In this document: positions 3,296 to 60,866 of the stretch, piece by piece
Layout: every line of letters starts with the position of its first letter
Position numbering within the stretch: position 1 is the stretch's first letter
Source: a virus
Length of the DNA: 62,907 bases
Reading direction: 5' to 3' (one strand)
Virus record (IMG/VR): IMGVR_UViG_3300017967_000020
Span: 1-62,907 of that record
Made by a program: the position numbers and the translations under genes
Notes under the pieces: generated by a model
Databases searched by the model: none
What the model was told of the DNA's origin: nothing
The model's input: the letters and a program-made list of their open reading frames with translations, nothing else

Positions 3296-6200
3296 ATGAT
3301 TAAAATAGCACACATTGCAGACACTCATATTCGTAATTTAAAGTACCACTATGAGTATAAGGTTATCTTTTCGCAAATTTACGAAACCTTACGAAATGAG
3401 AAGGTTGACTATATCGTACACTGCGGAGACATAGCACACACCAAAACACAGATTTCTCCAGAGTTTGTAGAAATGGCTTCTGAGTTCTTTTATAACTTAG
3501 CAGAGATTGCACCGACATACATTATCTTAGGAAACCACGATGGTAATCTCAAGAACAGTTCTCGACAAGATGCGATTACTCCAATTATCAATGCATTGGA
3601 TCACAGCAATCTACACCTACTTAAGAACTCAGGCGAAACAGACATTGGAGATGATGTTGTGTTGAATGTGTTATCGGTATTTGACGAAGACAATTGGATA
3701 GATCCCACAGATGATAGTAAAATTAACATTGCTTTGTATCATGGTGCGGTGCAATATTCTAAGACAGATGCAGGCTACTCAATGACACACGGAGATCACG
3801 ACATTTCTATCTTCGATGAGTTTGATTATGCTATGCTCGGAGACATTCATCAGCGTCAGTATCTCAACGATAAACGCACTATCTGGTATGCAGGCTCAAC
3901 AGTTCAGCAGAATTTTGGAGAAACAGACGACAAGGGTATTCTTATTTGGAATATCAAAAGCAAGACGAAGCACACCATTAAGCCTGTGATATTCAGTAAC
4001 CCACGCCCATTTCTATCTTGGAATATTGAACTGGATGTGAATGGTAATCCAGACATCTCAAATTTTAACCCACCAGAAGGAGCAAGAATCCGTGTTATTG
4101 CTGATAATTCTTTATCGATTGATCAAATCAAGAAGGCAACTGAGGTTGTCAAACATAAATTCAATCCAGAATCCGTTACATTCCTCAATAGAGCAACAAG
4201 TAGGAACTCAGTAGAATTAGGAGAAGGAGAATCTGAAGTACTTGATCTTCGCAATATTGAGGTACAAGAAGATTTGATTGAAGAATATTTGGATCCATTT
4301 AATTTATCACAAGATGAATTAGAAAATGTTTATCGACTTAACAAGAAATATAATGACGCCATAGCACAACAAGATGATATCTCTAGGAATGTTAATTGGA
4401 ACTTAGACAGAATCAGATGGGACAATTTGTTCAACTATGGAGCAGGTAATGAAATTAATTTTCAGAATCTTAACGGCATTGTTGGCATCTTCGGTAAAAA
4501 TTTCTCAGGTAAGTCATCCATCATTGATTCAATCTTGTTCTCAATGTTTAACTCAACTTCTAAAAATGAAAAGAAGAACCTCAACGTAATCAACCAAAAC
4601 AAGGAAAAAGCATTAGCAAAACTTGATGTTACCGTTGGGGAACAGAAATTTGTTATTGAACGAGAAGCAGAGAAATATACAAAGAAGTTAAAGGGAGAGG
4701 AAACACTTGAAGCCAAGACAGGCGTAACCTTTTATTCGGAGTCATTAGTGACAGGCGATATAACGCCCTTAAATGGCACTACAAGGAACGATACAGATAA
4801 AGCTATACGAAACCACTTTGGATCATTGGGAGACTTTCTATTGACATCTATGAGCTCCCAAAACGGTGCTTTGAATTTCATCTCCGAAGGCGCTTCAAAA
4901 CGAAAAGAGATCTTCGCAAAATTTCTTGATTTGAATCAGTTTGAACAAAAGTATCGTCTTGCGAAAGAGGACTCGGCAGAGGTACGTGCGCTTCTTAAAC
5001 GCCTTGAAGGTAGGGATTTTCACCAAGAAAAGAAAGAACAAGTAATTGATTTAGCAAAAGTTACAAAGCGCTTGAATGGGCACGAAGAAGATTGCAGAGT
5101 GTTAACGGCTCAAATTGAAGAGCTTAATAATGAAATAGCCTTGCTAGAATCGTCAATCAATTCAGTCCCAACAGAATTAATTGATATAGCAAAAGTTAGA
5201 AACAATATTGTTTCGAAAAGGACACAAGTGTCTAGGTTATACGATCATATAGAAGAGCTTACCAACGAGAAAAGAGGTAAAGAAGAAAGATATAGAGCAC
5301 TATGTGATTTTGAAGAGACATTTGATATTGAAGGGCTAAATTCCAAAAAAGTTAAAATTGATGAATTGATACAATTAATTGATGATACCACTACAGATAT
5401 AAAAGCAAAAGAGCGAGAATACAATTCAAATGCCTCAAAGAAGAAACTATTGGACGGGATACCTTGTGGCTCAAGTTTCCCTAAATGTAAGTTTATCAAA
5501 GATGCAAATATTGCCGTTGCCCATCTTCCTGCTATTCGTATGGAGATTGAGTCAGCAAGTGATAAAGTTTCAACATTTGAGGCAAGCCTAAGAGATCTCA
5601 ACCCAGAAAAGGTATCAGAACACTTAGCCAAGTTTCAAAAGCTGCTTGATAAGAAAGTAGAAGTATCTTCACGAATCACGGAAATTGGGTTGCAACATGA
5701 TCGTGACGTCACGACAATTAAACTTCTCACTAAAGAAATAGAAGAATTAGAACTAGAACAAAAAAGCTATGAAGACAATAAAGAAGCTATTGAAAATTTG
5801 GAATCAATGTTATCTAAGAAAGCTTCTATAGAAGCCAAGTTGCAAACCACCAAGAGAACATTGGCGAAATGTGAAAAAGATCGGCTAGACTTCTATAAAC
5901 AAACCGGATCAATTGAAGAGAAGATTAAGAATCTTGAGGAGTTGTCGGAACAACTAGAACAATACCGTTCCGAATACTCAGCATATGATTTGTACATGCA
6001 ATGCATGCACTCTAATGGGATTGCGTTCGATGTGATTAAAAAGAAGCTTCCTGTCATTAATGAAGAAATTTCAAAGACAATTGCCAACATTGTAGATTTC
6101 AATATCTTTTTTGAGGTTGATGGGGGAAAATTTGAAATTTATATTAAGCACCCAAAGCATGATCCGCGCCCTCTAGAGATGGGCTCTGGAGCAGAGAAAA

Positions 6201-7841: not shown

Positions 7842-8198
7842 ATGAAAGTAACAAAAAACTATATCAAGCAACTTGTAAAAGAAGAGCTTCAAGCTGTATT
7901 GGAAAATAATACGGAGTATATCGCTGGTGACGGCGGTGCTGATCGTATTGATGGGGTTAAAACAACCCTTTCTAAAGTTAATCTTGGCGTAAATCATCCA
8001 AAAATGAAAGATGTGAAAGAAAAGTTAAAAAGTATGCCGAATGGATCATTCACCAAAAATACAGCAATGGGCGATGATTTTCTTTATGTTAAGTCTGAGG
8101 AAGGTAATGCCTATTATGCTGCTAATCACCGTGGCAATAATAGGGCAGATTCTGCATATGAAGAATTGGAAGCATTGGGTTACAAAGAAGTTAAGTAA
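7842..8198 (+). CDS. Class A leader protein, predicted internal-head cargo
   Basis: This 118-residue protein opens with MKVTKNYIKQLVKEEL, the leader shared with genes at 14948, 15403, 59977 and 60440. The leader ends at VLE21 before Asn, close to a prohead-protease site (hydrophobic-x-Glu) though less canonical than in the other members. The remaining ~97 residues (Gly/Asp-rich, then charged) resemble nothing I recognise. It stands 3 bp downstream of the zinc-finger gene and two genes before the large terminase. I infer that the leader directs it into the prohead and is removed by gp21; the cargo function is unknown. Confidence 0.5.
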   Translation: MKVTKNYIKQLVKEELQAVLENNTEYIAGDGGADRIDGVKTTLSKVNLGVNHPKMKDVKEKLKSMPNGSFTKNTAMGDDFLYVKSEEGNAYYAANHRGNNRADSAYEELEALGYKEVK

Positions 8199-14813: not shown

Positions 14814-14951
14814 ATGAATATTAAGATCCCCAAAAAAAGAGCAATGGAAATCATGAAAGAAGAGATCGAAAAGTTCTTGCAAGAAAACAAGAATGTCGAT
14901 AGAAAACTTTTGGAATCCTACATTTCAAAGACAACAGGAGAAAAGAAATGA
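14814..14951 (+). CDS. 45-residue prohead-core-like leader peptide gene
   Basis: This short gene starts at ATG 14814 and ends at TGA 14949-14951, overlapping the next ATG (ATGA). The product begins MNIKIPKKRAMEIMKEEIEK and continues FLQE24/N25, then a basic tail. The basic-amphipathic start with a hydrophobic-x-Glu site near residue 24 parallels the class A leaders. Small highly charged core proteins (T4 gp67, gp68) lie at the equivalent position before gp21. Coupling on both sides and the leader likeness support a real gene. Confidence 0.45.
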   Translation: MNIKIPKKRAMEIMKEEIEKFLQENKNVDRKLLESYISKTTGEKK

Positions 14952-15406
14952 GAGTTACAAAATCTTATATTAAACAACTTGTAAAAGAAGAACTTACTAA
15001 GGTTCTTAACGAGTCGGCTCCTACCGATTCTGCTAAAAAAATCATGAACTATCTTAAAGATGTTTATGTTTTGCCAGATGATGAAGAGCATTTTAATGAT
15101 TTGTCATCTCATATGGGAGGTTTTCCACCAACTTTCGAAGAATTAAAAGCAAAAATCGAAAGAGAAACAGGGGAACCATATGCTAAAGTGTTATCCTTCC
15201 TTAAAACAATGCGCTCTGACACATACGATAGAATTGATTCAGAATATTTAGGAAAGCATGATCAGTACGATACTGCAAAACCATTCTCATATGGCGACAA
15301 GTCAGATCCCGGCGACTGGAAGAAAAAGAAACGTGCTGCTGCAGGAAGAAGGTATGGTGTCGGCGATGCTATCAAACGAGGTACTCTCAAGGAGACTGAA
15401 AAATGA
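14948..15406 (+). CDS. Class A leader protein, predicted internal-head cargo
   Basis: This is a 152-residue protein opening with MRVTKSYIKQLVKEEL and a good gp21-type site LNE22/S23. The mature part is acidic and helical (NYLKDVYVLPDDEEHF), ending in a Lys/Arg-rich tail (KKKKRAAAGRRYG) that could contact DNA. It is followed immediately by a second leader gene (ATG overlap at 15403) and then by the prohead protease, which suits substrates of that protease. Cargo identity is unknown; a scaffold-core role cannot be excluded. Confidence 0.5.
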   Translation: MRVTKSYIKQLVKEELTKVLNESAPTDSAKKIMNYLKDVYVLPDDEEHFNDLSSHMGGFPPTFEELKAKIERETGEPYAKVLSFLKTMRSDTYDRIDSEYLGKHDQYDTAKPFSYGDKSDPGDWKKKKRAAAGRRYGVGDAIKRGTLKETEK

Positions 15407-16101
15407 AAGTAACAAAATCTTATATTAAAAGAATTATCAAAGAAGAGTTAACTCAGGTTATCAAAGAATTCGATCTAGATGCCTTTGACTCAGATACAGG
15501 CGCAGGAGAGTCTGATGAAGAAAGATGGATAAGAGAAAGAGAAGAAGACTTTGCTGACTTTATGAAGGAGGTGTTTGGTGCGTTTCACAATATCGCAACT
15601 AACGAAAAGGCAGCCGTCATCGCAGCAATGAATCTTCAGAGACAACCAGAATTGTTCAAGTCTTTTAATATTTTATACAAACTATTGTCTCAAATCGTAC
15701 AAGGAAACACAAACGTTGCGCTTCAAAAAGTAGATGAAGGATCTATCAAATGTCCTACGGGTGATGCTTTTGAGGAGTGCGCTGAAACAAAGATAAAAGA
15801 GTTCTACTCAGTCGATCCACTATTCAGTAAACTGGGTAGAGCAATAGAAAAGTTAGATTATGATTTTAGTAGTAGTTTTAGAGACTCATCTAAGGGCCCT
15901 TATTATGGTAGTGGCTTCTTGGCTGTTTCTAAGATTGCCCCAGATGATGATGCTAAGCAACGAAAAATTTATGAATACTTTAATAAGAATATTAAAAATA
16001 TTTATGAATTTATGTCTAGATATGGATTTAATCCTAGCAATTATGCAGGCGGCGATGTCAGATATCTAGAGGGCGGAATGTCAAAGAGAGGTGAAATATG
16101 A
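15403..16101 (+). CDS. Class A leader protein, predicted internal-head cargo
   Basis: This is a 232-residue protein starting MKVTKSYIKRIIKEEL with candidate cleavage IKE22/F23. The body is acidic (DSDTGAGESDEERW) then mainly helical, with a Cys pair (C120 and C128 by rough count) and an aromatic Gly-rich end. Nothing recognisable as an enzyme. It overlaps the 14948 gene at its start and the tiny ORF at 16098 at its end, upstream of the prohead protease. Leader likeness is directly visible; packaging into the head is inferred. Confidence 0.5.
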   Translation: MKVTKSYIKRIIKEELTQVIKEFDLDAFDSDTGAGESDEERWIREREEDFADFMKEVFGAFHNIATNEKAAVIAAMNLQRQPELFKSFNILYKLLSQIVQGNTNVALQKVDEGSIKCPTGDAFEECAETKIKEFYSVDPLFSKLGRAIEKLDYDFSSSFRDSSKGPYYGSGFLAVSKIAPDDDAKQRKIYEYFNKNIKNIYEFMSRYGFNPSNYAGGDVRYLEGGMSKRGEI

Positions 16102-16154: not shown

Positions 16155-16766
16155 ATGAGTAAAGTTTTATTAAGAGAATATTATGAATTATGTGAAGGCG
16201 GTGTTTGCCAAGACATGCTTACCGAAGCAGAAAAGAAATATGTTGCTAACGGTGGAATGATCTTGACAGGTAAACTGCAAGAAGCAGAAGTTCAGAATGG
16301 AAACGGAAGAGTGTATCCTAGAAAGATCCTCGAAAGAGAAATGAAGAACTATATGATGCTTGTTAAGGATAGGAGAGCATTGGGAGAGTTAGATCACCCA
16401 GATGATTCTGTTATCAATTTAAAGAATGCTTCACATATGGTTACAGACGCATGGTGGGATGGTAATAATGTTATGGGTAAAGTTAAAATCCTTAACACAC
16501 CGTCTGGCAAGATTTTACAACAACTTGTCAATGACGGTGTTAAGTTGGGTATTAGTAGTCGGGCTCTTGGTTCTGTCAATGAATCAGGAGGAAAAACGAT
16601 GGTACAAGAAGATCTTCAGCTTATTTGCTTTGATTTCGTTAGCGAGCCTTCTACTCCTAATGCATTTATGGCACTACAAGAAGCAAAAAATATCAGAATT
16701 GAAACAGATATTTTCGACAAGAAATATAAACTAAACAGAATGCTAAACGAAATTTTAGAGGATTAA
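16155..16766 (+). CDS. Prohead core protein protease (gp21-like)
   Basis: This 203-residue serine protease is of the T4 gp21 / herpesvirus-assemblin type. GELDHPDDS at 77-85 provides the His (H81) and LGISSRALGS at 131-140 provides the Ser (S134/S135). In T4 it sits in the prohead core, cuts after hydrophobic-x-Glu sites in the capsid protein, scaffold and internal proteins, then digests itself. Possible substrates here include gp23 (LRE59/A60), gp22 (LLE43/A44) and the leader proteins around it. Ends directly before the next ATG (TAA-ATG). Confidence 0.9.
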   Translation: MSKVLLREYYELCEGGVCQDMLTEAEKKYVANGGMILTGKLQEAEVQNGNGRVYPRKILEREMKNYMMLVKDRRALGELDHPDDSVINLKNASHMVTDAWWDGNNVMGKVKILNTPSGKILQQLVNDGVKLGISSRALGSVNESGGKTMVQEDLQLICFDFVSEPSTPNAFMALQEAKNIRIETDIFDKKYKLNRMLNEILED

Positions 16767-17207
16767 ATGAATAAGAAAGAACTAAAACAACTTATCAAGC
16801 CACTTGTAAAAGAGTGCATTAAGGAAGCGTTGCTTGAAGAAGGAATGCTTTCAACTGTTATTGCTGAAGTTGTTAAAGGCACTTCTGGGCTTGTAGAGCA
16901 AAGAAGTCATAAAATTCAAGAGACTACAGAGAGAGTCTTGGATACAAATGAAGATGCAATGCGTAGACTTCAAGAAAGAAAGGTACAACAACAAACTCAA
17001 AAAAGAAAACTACTTGATGCTATTGGCGCAGGTGCTTATGGCGGCGTAGATCTTTTTGAAGGAACAGAGCCTTTAACAAAGGCTGGTAAAGTAGGGGATG
17101 GTGCATCTGCTCAAGGCGCATTGTCAAGTTACGCTCCAGATGATTCAGGAGTTGATATTTCAGGATTGCTAAATTTAGCAGGCGGTTCTTGGAAAAAAAT
17201 CAAATAA
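16767..17207 (+). CDS. Prohead core / leader-type protein after gp21
   Basis: This 146-residue protein begins MNKKELKQLIKPLVKECIKE, a longer relative of the amphipathic leader, and carries two strong gp21-type sites, LEE25/G26 and LFE98/G99. The middle is a Gln/Arg/Lys-rich helix and the C-terminus is Gly/Ser/Asp-rich. In T4 the scaffold gp22 follows gp21; here the long scaffold is 9.4 kb downstream and this small protein takes its place. A prohead-core role is likely from the sites and position. Confidence 0.5.
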   Translation: MNKKELKQLIKPLVKECIKEALLEEGMLSTVIAEVVKGTSGLVEQRSHKIQETTERVLDTNEDAMRRLQERKVQQQTQKRKLLDAIGAGAYGGVDLFEGTEPLTKAGKVGDGASAQGALSSYAPDDSGVDISGLLNLAGGSWKKIK

Positions 17208-27706: not shown

Positions 27707-29467
27707 ATGTCTATCGTTGAAAAATTAACTGAAGGTATTGTCAGACGTGATCTTGCTAAAGAAGGTGCTGCTCTGTTGAACAAATGGGAACGCACTGGTT
27801 TGTTGGAAGGTTTGGATTCTGATTATGCTAAAAACAATATGGCTTCTCTTCTTGAGAACCAAGCTAAGGAATTGCTTCGTGAGGCTTCTTTGATGTCTCA
27901 AGGTGATGTTGAAGGTTTCGCTGCTGTTGCTTTTCCTATCGTACGTCGTGTATTCGGCTCTTTGATCGCTAACGATCTTGTATCTGTTCAGCCTATGTCT
28001 TTGCCATCTGGTTTGATCTTCTTCTTGGACTTTAAATTTGGTTCTGAAGGTGGCGGTATGCCAAGAACTGGTTTTTATGAAGATGAATCAATCTACGGAC
28101 AAGGTGTCATTGGTTCACAATTGACTGGTGGTGTTGACATGAACAACCTTACTGAAGACAAGCAGCCGTTTGGACTTCAAGCAGGTTTCGCTCATGCTTC
28201 TGGTAATGTTGCATCAAATGCATCTGCAGTCGTACACGGACTTGAGTTTGTTGATTCTGGAACTGTTGGTTCTGATGCTGACATTGATAAGTTGGTTCAG
28301 TTCGATCCAGATCTTGCTGCAGGAACATTGATTACTGTTGCTCGTCTTACTCTTTCTGAATTGGATCAAATTGATTCTACAGAAAAAGGACTTAAGCATC
28401 TTGTTGTTCAATCTGCCTCTGCTCGTCCTGGGCTTATTGATGGTGCTAGCATTCTTTCTTGTTCTGCTGATCTTAGTCAAGTTCGTCGTTTGACTAAACT
28501 TTCCGGAACTGCTACTGATCATGCATTGCTTTTCTTCACTGGCTCAAACGTATGTTCTGCATCTGCTGGCGATGAATTGTTTTCTACTGCTAATATCAAA
28601 TTCCGATATCGTGCCACTGATGATATCGTAACTGGTTCTGGCTTGGGCTCTGTTGTTGGGCAATCCCAATGGCAATTGGAAGCACAAGAAAGCATTCCAG
28701 AAATCGAAATCAAAGTTGACAGTATTTCCGTAACTGCTCAAACCAAAAAGTTGAAAGCAAAGTGGAGTCCTGAGTTGGGGCAAGACTTGAATGCTTACCA
28801 CAACTTGGATGCTGAAGTTGAGTTGACTTCTATCTTGTCTGAACAAATCGCTTTGGAAATCGATCGTGAAATCTTGGCTGATTTGATTAGTGGTGCTAAA
28901 GCTGCTACTTATTACTGGAGTCGCTCTCCTGGTTTGTTCGTGAACAAGACTACTGGTGCTGCTATCGTTACTTCTAGTACTGTTGCTCCTGATTTCACTG
29001 GAAACGTTTCTGAATGGTATGAGACTTTGATCGAAACCATCAATGATGTTTCTGCTCAAATCCATAGAAAGACATTGCGTGGTGGCGCTAACTTCTTGGT
29101 TTGCGGCCCTGAAGTTGCTAACATCTTGGAATTCACCTCTGGTTTCCGTGCTAACGTTTCTCATGCTGATGAGAAAGGTACTGTTGGCGCTGTTAACGTA
29201 GGTTCTATCTCTAAGAAGTTCGATGTTATGGTTGATCCATACTTCCCACGAAATGTTATTTTGGTTGGACGTAAAGGTAACTCTTTCTTGGAAAGCGGTT
29301 ATGTATACGCTCCTTATGTCCCATTGCAAGTGACTCCTACTATCTTCGGTACTGAAGACTTCGTTCCTCGTAAAGGTGTTATGACACGCTATGCGAAGAA
29401 GATGGTTCGTCCAGATATGTACGGTTTGGTTATCGTTCGTGGATTGTTGGGAGGCGATAACGCCTAA
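27707..29467 (+). CDS. Major capsid protein (gp23-like)
   Basis: The ATG at 27707 is preceded by GGAGG; the in-frame TTG at 27692 is within the ribosome-site region. The precursor has 586 residues with an N-terminal propeptide ending LLRE59/A60, equivalent to the T4 gp23 cleavage after residue 65. HK97-fold signatures follow: GFAAVAFPIVRRVFGSLIAND, QPMSLPSG, and near the end PYVPLQVTPTIFGTEDFVPR and a Gly-Leu-Val-Ile end. Codon choice is heavily biased to T-ending codons and TTG, matching its expected abundance. A terminator follows, ending the gp22-gp23 unit. Confidence 0.93.
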   Translation: MSIVEKLTEGIVRRDLAKEGAALLNKWERTGLLEGLDSDYAKNNMASLLENQAKELLREASLMSQGDVEGFAAVAFPIVRRVFGSLIANDLVSVQPMSLPSGLIFFLDFKFGSEGGGMPRTGFYEDESIYGQGVIGSQLTGGVDMNNLTEDKQPFGLQAGFAHASGNVASNASAVVHGLEFVDSGTVGSDADIDKLVQFDPDLAAGTLITVARLTLSELDQIDSTEKGLKHLVVQSASARPGLIDGASILSCSADLSQVRRLTKLSGTATDHALLFFTGSNVCSASAGDELFSTANIKFRYRATDDIVTGSGLGSVVGQSQWQLEAQESIPEIEIKVDSISVTAQTKKLKAKWSPELGQDLNAYHNLDAEVELTSILSEQIALEIDREILADLISGAKAATYYWSRSPGLFVNKTTGAAIVTSSTVAPDFTGNVSEWYETLIETINDVSAQIHRKTLRGGANFLVCGPEVANILEFTSGFRANVSHADEKGTVGAVNVGSISKKFDVMVDPYFPRNVILVGRKGNSFLESGYVYAPYVPLQVTPTIFGTEDFVPRKGVMTRYAKKMVRPDMYGLVIVRGLLGGDNA

Positions 29468-31154: not shown

Positions 31155-31913
31155 ATGAAACATAAATTAATAATGGAAAACTGGAGACGGTTTGTAAACG
31201 AAGAAGTTCAAGATGATTCTTGGAAGTATTATGGTGATGAAGGTAGAAGTGATGCCCAATTAAGAGCAGATCGAGATTGGAAAAGGGAATGGAATTCTAA
31301 GGCTGATCAAGATTTTTTCAAAAATGAAGTCAAGAAAGTTCATTGGGTAGGCGGAGTTCATAAGGTTGCTGACTCTAGCGCTCAAGAGCCTCAACTCATT
31401 GGTGACTTAAAGTCGTGGGGAAATATTACTTCTACACATAAAGATGAATTATCTTGTATTGGGTACTTAGGTTTGCCTATGGAAGATAGTTTGGGCATGG
31501 CTTTAGGGCTTTTGGTTGATGGCTACACATCTTATGCTGCTGCAGGTGACATACAAACTGAATGGACTTCTACCGCAGAAGAGGAAGATATTGAAAAACA
31601 TGCTTCATCCGGATTAGCAAAAAGAGCGAATATAAAAGATAATGCTATGTACGATAAAGAAACATTTGTAGAACCATCGCAATCTCCGGGCGGATATAAT
31701 GAATTAATTGTCGATAATTGGAAGGCTGTAGGTGTGGTACTCAAAGTTAATCACAGGTATTTTAAATGGATGTATAAAAATATGAAATCTGAAAAATTTC
31801 GAAATATCAAAGCAATTAGACAAAAAGAAATAAAAGATATCATGGAACATTGTAGATCTATGGGAATTCCTTTGCTAGATGCTAGCCTAGATCCAATTGA
31901 GGAGCAGGCGTAA
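31155..31913 (+). CDS. Class B leader protein, predicted internal-head cargo
   Basis: This 252-residue protein opens with MKHKLIMENWRRFVNE, followed at once by E17. It shares this 16-residue start with the next gene (one residue different; 4 mismatches in the first 51 bases). VNE16 is a hydrophobic-x-Glu site of the gp21 type. The rest (acidic N-terminal part, a Gly-rich LGLPMEDSLGMALGLLVDGY helix, then a basic C-terminus) is not recognisable. It interrupts the neck operon between gp13 and gp14, so it is a late gene. Confidence 0.5.
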   Translation: MKHKLIMENWRRFVNEEVQDDSWKYYGDEGRSDAQLRADRDWKREWNSKADQDFFKNEVKKVHWVGGVHKVADSSAQEPQLIGDLKSWGNITSTHKDELSCIGYLGLPMEDSLGMALGLLVDGYTSYAAAGDIQTEWTSTAEEEDIEKHASSGLAKRANIKDNAMYDKETFVEPSQSPGGYNELIVDNWKAVGVVLKVNHRYFKWMYKNMKSEKFRNIKAIRQKEIKDIMEHCRSMGIPLLDASLDPIEEQA

Positions 31914-31967
31914 ATAATGAAACATAGATTAATAATGGAAAACTGGAGACGTTTTGTGAACGAAGCA
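31155..31967 (+). repeat. Duplicated class B leader coding segment
   Basis: The first 51 bases of the gene at 31155 recur at 31917-31967 with 4 mismatches, encoding the MKHKLIMENWRRFVNE/MKHRLIMENWRRFVNE leaders. Homology stops there; the downstream sequences differ entirely. Confidence 0.8.
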
Positions 31968-32627
31968 GCATTGGGTTTTGGTTCTGAAGGTTTATCTGAA
32001 CTTGGAGATATGACTTTTAGGATTGAAAATGATGGTGGATACTATACCATAAGGGCATTAGATGGTTCCGGATCTGAATTAGGGTTCGTAGATCTTGACG
32101 ATTCATATGCTTCTGATTGTGGAATCTTTGTTACTCATTCTGAAATTACAAATCCAGAAAAAGCATCTTTCGGCCCATTTCTTTATGATTTGGCGATAGA
32201 GTTAGGTACTTTGGTGGGATCGGGCGTAACGTCATCATCAAATCCAAGCGGACTTACCGCTACAGATTCGGAAAAAAGCAAATCTATGGCAATTAATGTT
32301 TGGACTTATTATTACGAGAGAAGAGCTGATATCACAAAATTTCCTTTAACTTGTGTTGCAATGCTAGATGGTAGATATATTTTGCACAAAGGAATGTACA
32401 TTTTCCCAGATCACAAGCATTCGCACATGATAATTAATACTGTAAAACAAGGAGATAAATATTCTCACAAAGATCCTCCCAGTAATCTATTAACTAGGGT
32501 TAATGCGATTAACCACTTCTATTCAAAAGATCCAATTTTCTTAGATCAACTTAAGGCTATGGGCAAATTAGAAGACACTGCAAATGTACTAGAAGAAGGA
32601 GCAAGACAGTATGTCAAAAAAGGATAA
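31917..32627 (+). CDS. Class B leader protein with GPFLYD-type domain
   Basis: This is a 236-residue protein beginning MKHRLIMENWRRFVNE16/A17, the best class B site because Ala follows Glu. The domain after it contains FGPFLYDLAIELGTLVG, a segment spaced before VWTYYYERRADI. Marine-phage proteins with a GPLLYD...VWxYYxxRxD pattern are common, of unknown function, and loosely acetyltransferase-like in layout. I cannot assign catalysis. Its end overlaps the gp14-like gene by 17 bases, tying it to the neck operon. Confidence 0.5.
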   Translation: MKHRLIMENWRRFVNEAALGFGSEGLSELGDMTFRIENDGGYYTIRALDGSGSELGFVDLDDSYASDCGIFVTHSEITNPEKASFGPFLYDLAIELGTLVGSGVTSSSNPSGLTATDSEKSKSMAINVWTYYYERRADITKFPLTCVAMLDGRYILHKGMYIFPDHKHSHMIINTVKQGDKYSHKDPPSNLLTRVNAINHFYSKDPIFLDQLKAMGKLEDTANVLEEGARQYVKKG

Positions 32628-52786: not shown

Positions 52787-52824
52787 AAACGTAATATAAA
52801 ATGACTCCTTTGTTTGTGTTGTGG

Positions 52825-52858
52825 CTCCCTATCATTAATTTGGTAGGGAGTTTTTTTT
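52825..52858 (+). terminator. Intrinsic terminator after uvsX
   Basis: CTCCCTATC (52825-52833) pairs with GGTAGGGAG (52842-52850), one T-G, followed by eight T. The last T residues double as the -35 box of the next promoter. Confidence 0.9.
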
Positions 52859-52886
52859 GAATATACTTTAATTTTAATCGTATAAT
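52857..52886 (+). promoter_or_regulatory. Early/middle-type promoter (TTGAAT-N18-TATAAT)
   Basis: TTGAAT at 52857-52862 and TATAAT at 52881-52886 with AATCG in front, directly behind the uvsX terminator. It drives the FEN gene at 52902. Confidence 0.65.
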
Positions 52887-52901
52887 ATATGTGGAGGGAT
52901 T

Positions 52902-57254: not shown

Positions 57255-57524
57255 ATGAAACCAGTTAATAGACATTTATTGGTAGAAATACCAGTTGTAG
57301 AAGAAGAGGAAGTATCATCAACTTTTCTCTTGCCTGAGTCTTATAAGACAAAGGAAGTGCAGCGATATACGAGAGTTCGTATTATTGCTTGCGCAGATGA
57401 TTGCAAAGCCAACTATAGTGGCGAGGCATATGTAGAAACATCAATGATCGAGGATATCTCTATCAACGGTGAATTATATCATATTGTCCCTGAAAACTAT
57501 TTAGTACTGTTATTGGAGGCATAA
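57255..57524 (+). CDS. GroES-like co-chaperonin (gp31-type)
   Basis: This 89-residue protein has the Cpn10 pattern: MKPVNRHLLVEIPVVEEEEV (first strands), a mobile-loop-like STFLLPESYKTKEV, VRIIACADDC, and a closing YHIVPENYLVLLLEA strand. T4 gp31 replaces GroES to let GroEL fold the capsid protein; a capsid of 586 residues here could need the same. It lacks a clear IVL-type tripeptide in the loop but has TFLL at that place. Its stop overlaps the ThyX ATG by one base. Confidence 0.65.
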   Translation: MKPVNRHLLVEIPVVEEEEVSSTFLLPESYKTKEVQRYTRVRIIACADDCKANYSGEAYVETSMIEDISINGELYHIVPENYLVLLLEA

Positions 57525-59920: not shown

Positions 59921-59936
59921 TTAACAAATTAATTCA

Positions 59937-59944
59937 CTATTTAT
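59937..59944 (+). promoter_or_regulatory. Late-type promoter motif among early genes (CACTATTTAT)
   Basis: CACTATTTATTCTGAAAATC begins at 59935, 40 bp before the leader gene at 59977. It is the only clear late-type copy between 39 kb and the right edge and serves precisely the two leader proteins. This supports late, virion-type expression of those genes. Confidence 0.6.
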
Positions 59945-59948
59945 TCTG

Positions 59949-60491
59949 AAAATCATTCATTTAAGGAGAATTTAAAATGAAAGTAACAAAATCCTATATC
60001 AAACAACTCGTAAAAGAAGAGTTAAACAGAGTCCTAGAAGAAGAGATGGCTCCATATGGAATGGATCCATATAAACTTCCACGTAAAGGTACTGTTGGCG
60101 AATATACTTGGGAAGCCCTCTTGGGCAAAAAACAAGGTGGCGCTCAAGATATAACAATTAGAGTTACCGGTGGTGGAAAAACCGTTGCTTGGGATTTTCA
60201 CAGTCACCCAACATCCCTTGCAACAATGTTGGGAAAACTCAACAATGAACCAGATGAGGCAGAACAATACATTCAGATGGCATTAAAAAATGGCAAAGAT
60301 GTAACCCCGATGAAAGGTGGGAATGAGTGGTATGGTGGCAAGTCATCAAATTCAGGCGTATCTTCAGCACAAGATAAATACTGGAACAGATAACAAATGG
60401 CAATACTAAAAAAAATCATTCATTCAAGGAGAATTTAAAATGAAAGTAACAAAATCTTATATCAAACAACTCGTAAAAGAAGAGCTAAACA
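59949..60491 (+). repeat. Duplicated leader plus ribosome-site cassette (80 bp)
   Basis: Bases 59949-60028 (leader mRNA, AAGGAGAATTTAAA ribosome site and first 17 codons) recur at 60412-60491 with 3 mismatches. The genes downstream of each copy are unrelated. This is a duplicated 5' cassette feeding different cargo. Confidence 0.9.
59977..60393 (+). CDS. Class A leader protein, predicted internal-head cargo
   Basis: This is a 138-residue protein starting MKVTKSYIKQLVKEEL, then LEE22/E23. The mature part (about 116 residues) is Gly/Lys-rich with ITIRVTGGGKTVAWDF and a HSHPTS sequence, and no established family. It has its own late promoter although its neighbours are metabolic and replication genes. 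I infer head packaging via the leader. A JAMM peptidase is not supported (see rejected items). Confidence 0.5.
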   Translation: MKVTKSYIKQLVKEELNRVLEEEMAPYGMDPYKLPRKGTVGEYTWEALLGKKQGGAQDITIRVTGGGKTVAWDFHSHPTSLATMLGKLNNEPDEAEQYIQMALKNGKDVTPMKGGNEWYGGKSSNSGVSSAQDKYWNR

Positions 60492-60781
60492 ACATGCTGA
60501 GAGAAGCTAATGCTTGCTATGAATGGAGCAAATCGGCAAAATCACCCGCAGGACAAGACTTGACAGTACATCAACGATGCTCCAACTCTGGGGAACCCCG
60601 TTATTTCTTGGAGATTTTTGGAGATAAATCACCGGGCAAATACTCCATTGGAGAAGAATTTGCTAATCAAATTATGCATAATAATTATGATGCTCAGAAC
60701 GCAAAAAAGATCGACAATGCATTTTTGATGAAATCTGATCTGGCAGTTAAAGCTTTTGATGTCTATGTTCACAATCGTTAA
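60440..60781 (+). CDS. Class A leader protein with capsid-identical cleavage site
   Basis: This is a 113-residue protein starting MKVTKSYIKQLVKEEL, then NNMLRE22/A23. The P4-P1' residues LRE/A repeat the predicted capsid-protein site LLRE/A. The mature part has two Cys (one in NACYEW, one in QRCSNS), an AGQDLTVHQR strand and a C-terminal helix KAFDVYVHNR. Unknown fold. Shares the 80-bp 5' cassette with the preceding gene. The strongest single case for prohead-protease processing of a leader protein. Confidence 0.55.
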   Translation: MKVTKSYIKQLVKEELNNMLREANACYEWSKSAKSPAGQDLTVHQRCSNSGEPRYFLEIFGDKSPGKYSIGEEFANQIMHNNYDAQNAKKIDNAFLMKSDLAVKAFDVYVHNR

Positions 60782-60803: not shown

Positions 60804-60834
60804 TTGAATAAAATAACCTCTCTAATCGTATAGT
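60804..60834 (+). promoter_or_regulatory. Early/middle-type promoter of DNA polymerase (TTGAAT-N19-TATAGT)
   Basis: TTGAAT at 60804-60809 and TATAGT at 60829-60834 with AATCG in front. The -10 box is inside the left arm of the hairpin described next. Confidence 0.65.
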
Positions 60835-60866
60835 GTATACACAACATACGACTAGGGAGGTTTTTT
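60815..60866 (+). terminator. Terminator-like hairpin overlapping the polymerase promoter
   Basis: Bases 60815-60831 pair with 60846-60862 (17 positions, one G-T and one A-C), with an inner GTGTA/TACAC; T residues follow to 60866, just before the ATG at 60867. The 3' arm is the ribosome site GGGAGG. Only read-through RNA would contain both arms; RNA from the promoter at 60804 starts after the left arm. Confidence 0.6.

Follow-up and report, generated by a model that had tools for sequence, protein, structure and literature searches.

A short N-terminal peptide shared by mostly unrelated proteins of an uncultivated T4-like phage probably (at a probability of roughly 0.8) acts as a capsid-targeting propeptide, in a loading system that resembles that of the T4 internal proteins and carries swappable cargo. 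The window, i.e., the entire stretch of 62,907 nucleotides analyzed here (IMG/VR record IMGVR_UViG_3300017967_000020), is a linear virus record and may be a fragment. The initial annotation, made from the nucleotide sequence, described two neighboring genes with a duplicated 5′ leader and read them as a plug-in cassette for virion cargo, in which the promoter, ribosome site and an address tag are kept and the cargo changes; it was right in its observation and very probably right in its interpretation. The address-tag reading gains support from at least about 170 mostly unrelated proteins that bear the tag, from a protease-type site at the end of conservation, from co-occurrence with a gp21-type protease and from the identical anatomy of T4 ipII/ipIII.

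The tagged pair lies on the plus strand among ThyX (57524; Thy1, E = 3.6e-48), two unknown ORFs and DnaE (60867; DNA_pol3_alpha, E = 3e-54), domain matches that confirm its placement between ThyX-region genes and DnaE; the wider neighborhood consists of replication genes, encoding RecA, a 5′-3′ exonuclease, DnaB helicase, class II ribonucleotide reductase, ThyX and DnaE. ORF A (59977–60393; 138 aa, with no PHROG or Pfam family) and ORF B (60440–60781; 113 aa) are each preceded and entered by one copy of a repeat, at 59949–60028 and 60412–60491, respectively. Direct comparison of the two copies reproduces the reported 3 mismatches in 80 positions, and their alignment extends over 110 nt at 85% identity. 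Each copy spans the leader, an AAGGAG ribosome site, the ATG and the first 17 codons, in line with the initial annotation, which also called the downstream genes unrelated; the two proteins show no relatedness beyond about residue 22. Tag 1 of ORF A (MKVTKSYIKQLVKEELNRVLEE; 59977–60042) has a predicted cut after E22 (L-E-E), and that of ORF B (60440–60505) ends in MLRE|A. The predicted structure of ORF A has low confidence (pLDDT 60) and comprises a helix at residues 5–27 followed by a beta/alpha part, for which a fold search gave no significant match; the model of ORF B is poor. The late motif that had been assigned to the pair is present, as the putative late-promoter element ACTATTTAT (59936–59944, plus strand, 41 nt before the ORF A ATG), but it precedes only the first gene and is not part of what was duplicated: because the repeat begins 5 nt downstream of ACTATTTAT, the duplicated unit is the leader, ribosome site and tag, without the promoter.

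Tag 1 is not confined to the pair. The peptide MKVTKSYIKQLVKEELxxxLxE forms the N-terminus of five window ORFs: with ORF A as the query, it recurs on ORF B and on three further plus-strand ORFs, one upstream of the terminase gene (7842–8198) and two upstream of the prohead protease gene (14948–15406 and, directly upstream, 15403–16101). The earlier count of two tagged genes thus holds for the pair, but the window total is five, plus a second tag family. An ORF that follows the protease gene, 16767–17207, begins with MNKKELKQLIKPLVKECIKEALLEEG, perhaps a degenerate tag, with no significant HMM match.

Beyond the window, a degenerate pattern of residues 1–15 matched at least 120 viral-contig stretches; the pattern matches yielded at least 183 tagged ORFs, the window's own included, and tag 1 is found on at least about 170 distinct ORFs in viral contigs. 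Conservation at residues 1–15 is partly set by this pattern, whereas residues 16–22 and the HMM matches are free of it. Cargo is diverse: among the matches listed, 167 tagged ORFs fall into 144 clusters, 132 of them singletons. By HMM count, the 24 records examined carry from 1 to 11 tags each. Tag matches occur near the head region, between 151 and 243 kb, in the uncultured 484-kb phage LR756508, which has its capsid gene at 172 kb, and bacterial and archaeal genomes totalling 257 Gb contain the pattern in two contigs only. In one of the two genomes concerned, fourteen tagged ORFs are packed within 8.4 kb (G057:C25:54937-63326, in the genome of locus L274) on a contig that seems to come from a phage and was binned with a Halobacteriovorax MAG; another contig of this genome encodes a phrog_207 protease. 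The binning of this dense array may possibly hint at a host. Searches of cultured phages gave no significant match to tag 1, short queries limiting their sensitivity, and Pfam and PHROG searches gave no family with a meaningful score for either the tag or the tagged proteins of the window; a known domain was accordingly ruled out.

The distribution of tag 1 bears on a rival explanation of the locus, namely that the 80-bp repeat reflects only a recent local duplication or a translation-enhancing leader that acts at the nucleotide level and has no address function. The two copies are indeed 96% identical, leader included, yet the same peptide on distant genes and in distant phages shows many synonymous changes, and this codon variation indicates selection on the peptide. 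Duplication also predicts homologous cargo behind all copies, whereas the downstream parts are not paralogous and cargo is replaced while tags persist. We regard this explanation as highly improbable.

The end of the tag supports the capsid-targeting reading. T4 gp21 cuts after L/I-X-E, a specificity described together with CTS function (PMC9026906). Residues 17–22 of tag 1, which lie outside the search pattern, still carry information, and from residue 23 onward the information falls to almost none. The motif [LI]xE is found within residues 17–26 in 86 of 172 tags as compared to 4 of 172 within residues 30–39 (its rate elsewhere is 8.5% per ten residues), and the relaxed [LIVMF]xE in 120 of 172. 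The exact cut position is uncertain because 47 of 165 tags lack [LIVMF]xE at residues 17–28, yet nearly all have I/V-x-E, as I/V-K-E, at residues 12–14. The window encodes a T4 gp21-type prohead protease (16155–16766, plus strand; phrog_207, E = 2e-53) and a major capsid protein of the Gp23 family (27707–29467, plus strand), in which E59|A60 aligns to the T4 gp23 maturation site E65|A66; the capsid sequence LRE|A falls exactly at the T4 cut, with E and A invariant in that alignment, and the same LRE|A ends the tag of ORF B.

The protease and the tag also travel together. Among tag-bearing records of at least 40 kb, 15 of 21 encode phrog_207, as opposed to none of 23 arbitrary contigs of at least 40 kb (Fisher 2e-7), which were drawn with an arbitrary 15-mer and bear no tags; the protease was not seen in the remaining six records, which may be fragments. 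This co-occurrence is partly due to the tags belonging to T4-like phages. The position of tags relative to the protease is stricter evidence: in 8 of 18 records the protease follows a tag at a distance of at most 2.5 kb, with 1.9 records expected by rotation (p = 3.5e-4).

The same proximity could be read differently, with the tagged proteins as parts of the prohead core or scaffold (as are T4 gp67, gp68 and gp22) that are degraded in head maturation, and the tag as a core-assembly helix. Two tagged ORFs occupy the position of T4 gp67/gp68 directly upstream of the protease, and in other records, too, tags are concentrated in the region before the protease; structural core proteins, however, would not be expected to be as diverse as this cargo or to be swapped between close relatives, the tagged pair and a tagged gene at a recA junction (see below) lie far from the head genes, and occasional LRR and FliG_C-like domains appear in the cargo. 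A role as core or scaffold is therefore judged unlikely. Alternatively, the N-terminus could direct proteins to a place or partner in the infected cell, e.g., host RNA polymerase or the membrane, and have nothing to do with the virion. Many host-takeover proteins are small and variable, and this cargo has no assigned function; against such an in-cell role stand the prohead-protease-type site that ends the tag, the link to the protease and head module, the late-type motif and the identical anatomy of T4 ipII/ipIII, which together make it very unlikely.

The putative promoter motif of the pair is one that also stands before virion genes. ACTATTTAT occurs six times in the window, always on the plus strand, with 1.0 expected on both strands; the broader ACTATTTAY occurs nine times on the plus strand and never on the minus strand, and eight occurrences fall within the 1,720 nt of intergenic gaps, as compared to 0.06 in shuffles. 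ACTATTTAY precedes the genes for the tail sheath, the tail tube and the head-tail adaptor, the gene after the capsid gene, and others; it is called late because of the virion genes that it serves. For the 171 tagged ORFs that lie outside the window, the top upstream 8-mer, obtained unprompted, was ACTATTTA (8 occurrences vs 0.17 expected). An early-type motif, CGTATA[AG]T (CGTATAAT), precedes the genes for the exonuclease and helicase, the gene at 57255 and dnaE. Only in the gap at 561–619, before gene 620, do the late-type ACTATTTAT and early-type CGTATAAT occur together. The standard T4 late promoter TATAAATA was rejected as the element in use, being found on the minus strand only and at chance level; the phage's own motif is ACTATTTAY.

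Downstream, the pair is followed by a hairpin with a T-run (60815–60866, plus strand; z = −4.9), its likely terminator, which is conserved and covarying, with three pairs changed on both sides across four relatives. The hairpin overlaps the start of the next unit: its 3′ arm contains the dnaE ribosome site, and its 5′ arm and loop contain TATAGT (60829–60834, plus strand) of the early-type motif CGTATAGT. Judging from this layout, transcripts that run on from the tagged pair would either end at the hairpin or have the dnaE ribosome site folded into it, whereas dnaE transcripts made early would begin within the hairpin and avoid both effects.

A second tag family is present in the same phage. 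Two plus-strand ORFs after the head-tail adaptor gene, 31155–31913 (MKHKLIMENWRRFVNE) and 31917–32627 (MKHRLIMENWRRFVNEA), share a different N-terminus, MKH(K/R)LIMENWRRFVNE, and the cargo in this slot differs among the window, L258 and L261.

Comparison of the locus in related phages, suggested alongside the original cassette reading, supports that reading: four relatives with neighbors about 90% identical carry other cargo or a different tag in the same slot. The gene to the left of the pair is found in six contigs at 89–98% identity, four of which extend into or across the slot before dnaE, and in these four (L126–L129), as in the window, ACTATTTA[CT] (ACTATTTAY) stands at the same place before the slot. 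The window slot holds two tag-1 genes; that of L127 also holds two, with cargo other than the window's; L128 has a single tag-1 gene, a homolog of ORF B; L129 has an ORF B homolog and a gene whose N-terminus is like a tag-2/tag-1 join; and in L126 a tag-2-like gene takes the place of tag 1. The ORF B cargo occurs behind tag 1 only, in two relatives; no case of one cargo under a different tag was found.

Several details of these slots are recorded here as observations. The L129 gene at 5381–5770 begins with MKMKILMENFKKYTKEESNKVLNE, which reads like tag 2 fused to the last part of tag 1, and in the same contig (4940–5030) a 19-residue Cys-rich micro-ORF (MSKNCNCCECCACECEKCC) lies between two leader/ribosome-site copies, before the tagged gene. 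The L126 gene at 4907–5643 starts with GTG only some 14 nt downstream of ACTATTTAT, lacks a clear ribosome site and is perhaps leaderless; its cargo, judged by eye, resembles a GNAT acetyltransferase.

A second insertion site is occupied in two related genomes (G002 and G003) and empty in the window. There, ACTATTTAT and a tag-1 gene sit at the recA/exonuclease junction, between the shared terminator and the CGTATAAT motif of the exonuclease gene; at the window's junction (52787–52901, plus strand) the terminator and the early motif follow one another with no gene between. Genome G004 has a tag with the upstream motif in the recA/exonuclease area. As to what is carried, a Pfam search of 93 tagged proteins found only single members matching LRR, FliG_C and a RelB-like antitoxin family, and a PADLOC scan of tagged proteins gave no match. 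A role in disturbing host motility might suit a FliG-like cargo.

The closest known design is that of T4, in which diverse internal proteins have only the CTS in common (PMC3012670). That these proteins are packaged and cut is established (PMC9026906), and two of them, IPI and IPIII, act against host defences (PMC9391042). Like IPI, IPII, IPIII and Alt, the proteins described here combine a short conserved N-terminal peptide that ends in I/L-x-E, unrelated cargo and a gp21-type protease. The tagged pair is also like T4 ipII and ipIII, which served as a control: these genes are adjacent, lie away from the head genes and share about 46 identical nt that comprise the ribosome site and CTS, followed by unrelated cargo. 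The differences are that tag 1 has about 22 residues as compared to about 10 and no detectable relation to the T4 CTS, that two tag families can occupy the same slot, and that as many as 11–14 tagged ORFs occur per record or contig. Since HMMs of neither tag match the N-termini of the T4 internal proteins, the likeness is treated here as one of analogous design rather than of descent.

Other systems share parts of this arrangement. PeSL (promoter early stem-loop) cassettes, as presented in a citing paper (PMC4503421), undergo modular shuffling in T4-like phages and place cargo genes between a terminator stem-loop and an early promoter; the window shows a hairpin with an embedded early motif before dnaE and a terminator/early-motif junction at recA/exonuclease, and the mobile unit here adds its own late-type promoter and a protein tag. 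In SPN3US-type giant phages, a different phage group, head-internal and ejection proteins are likewise described as bearing propeptides that are cleaved by the prohead protease (PMC7411985, PMC10052503). Gp23, gp21, terminase, portal and a T4-type module order are shared with Far-T4 phages (Rhodothermus phage RM378 and uncultivated marine and freshwater contigs), and RM378 and Flavobacterium phage immuto are among the best cultured matches to the capsid protein; tag 1, by contrast, is absent from the examined head regions of RM378, immuto and Mel-JY01, and a text search of the paper on the Far-T4 genomes (PMC4360716) found such tags nowhere mentioned. The tag motif was not found printed in the literature searched, where sequences rarely stand in running text. 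CTS-directed internal proteins are known, but that literature does not appear to describe these tags, how far they extend or the polymorphism of their slots in these uncultivated phages.

Taken together, these observations suggest the following scheme. The pair would be transcribed late from the ACTATTTAT promoter, with transcripts ending at the 60815–60866 terminator; the helical N-terminal tag of about 22 residues would bind the scaffold core of the forming prohead; and the gp21-type protease would then cut after [LI]-x-E near residue 22, or else after I/V-K-E14 within the tag, and release the cargo into the head; the cargo would then reach the next host along with the DNA. Recombination at the constant unit and at terminator/early-promoter junctions may swap, duplicate, add or lose cargo, a flexibility proposed to arise because nothing beyond the tag, leader and ribosome site would be required. 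The DNA and its predicted products show an invariant tag in front of unrelated cargo, the exchange of genes in slots, an empty insertion site, a site of the protease type and the distribution of the motifs; we infer that the pair is expressed late, that the tag binds the core, that the proteins are cut, packaged and injected, and that the cargo acts against host defences or in takeover. The chances are about even that the arrangement extends further, to a large uncultivated T4-like group that shares a mobile cassette of promoter, leader and tag and two capsid-address tags that can replace each other, i.e., modular, clade-wide loading of rapidly changing effectors with up to more than ten effectors per phage and drop-in sites behind a terminator and before an early promoter.

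T4 proteins that bear such a tag are injected along with the DNA, and some, IPI and IPIII, defeat host defences. If the capsid-targeting reading is true, this phage and dozens of its relatives fill their heads with many small, unrelated proteins by means of one cleavable label, and sequence alone would suffice to recognize the virion-delivered proteins of uncultivated phages by a 22-residue tag. The proteins thus recognized, hundreds in number, unrelated and for the most part without annotation, would be probable counter-defence or takeover factors, and the tags would provide new capsid-targeting peptides, unrelated to those of T4, for protein-packaging tests.
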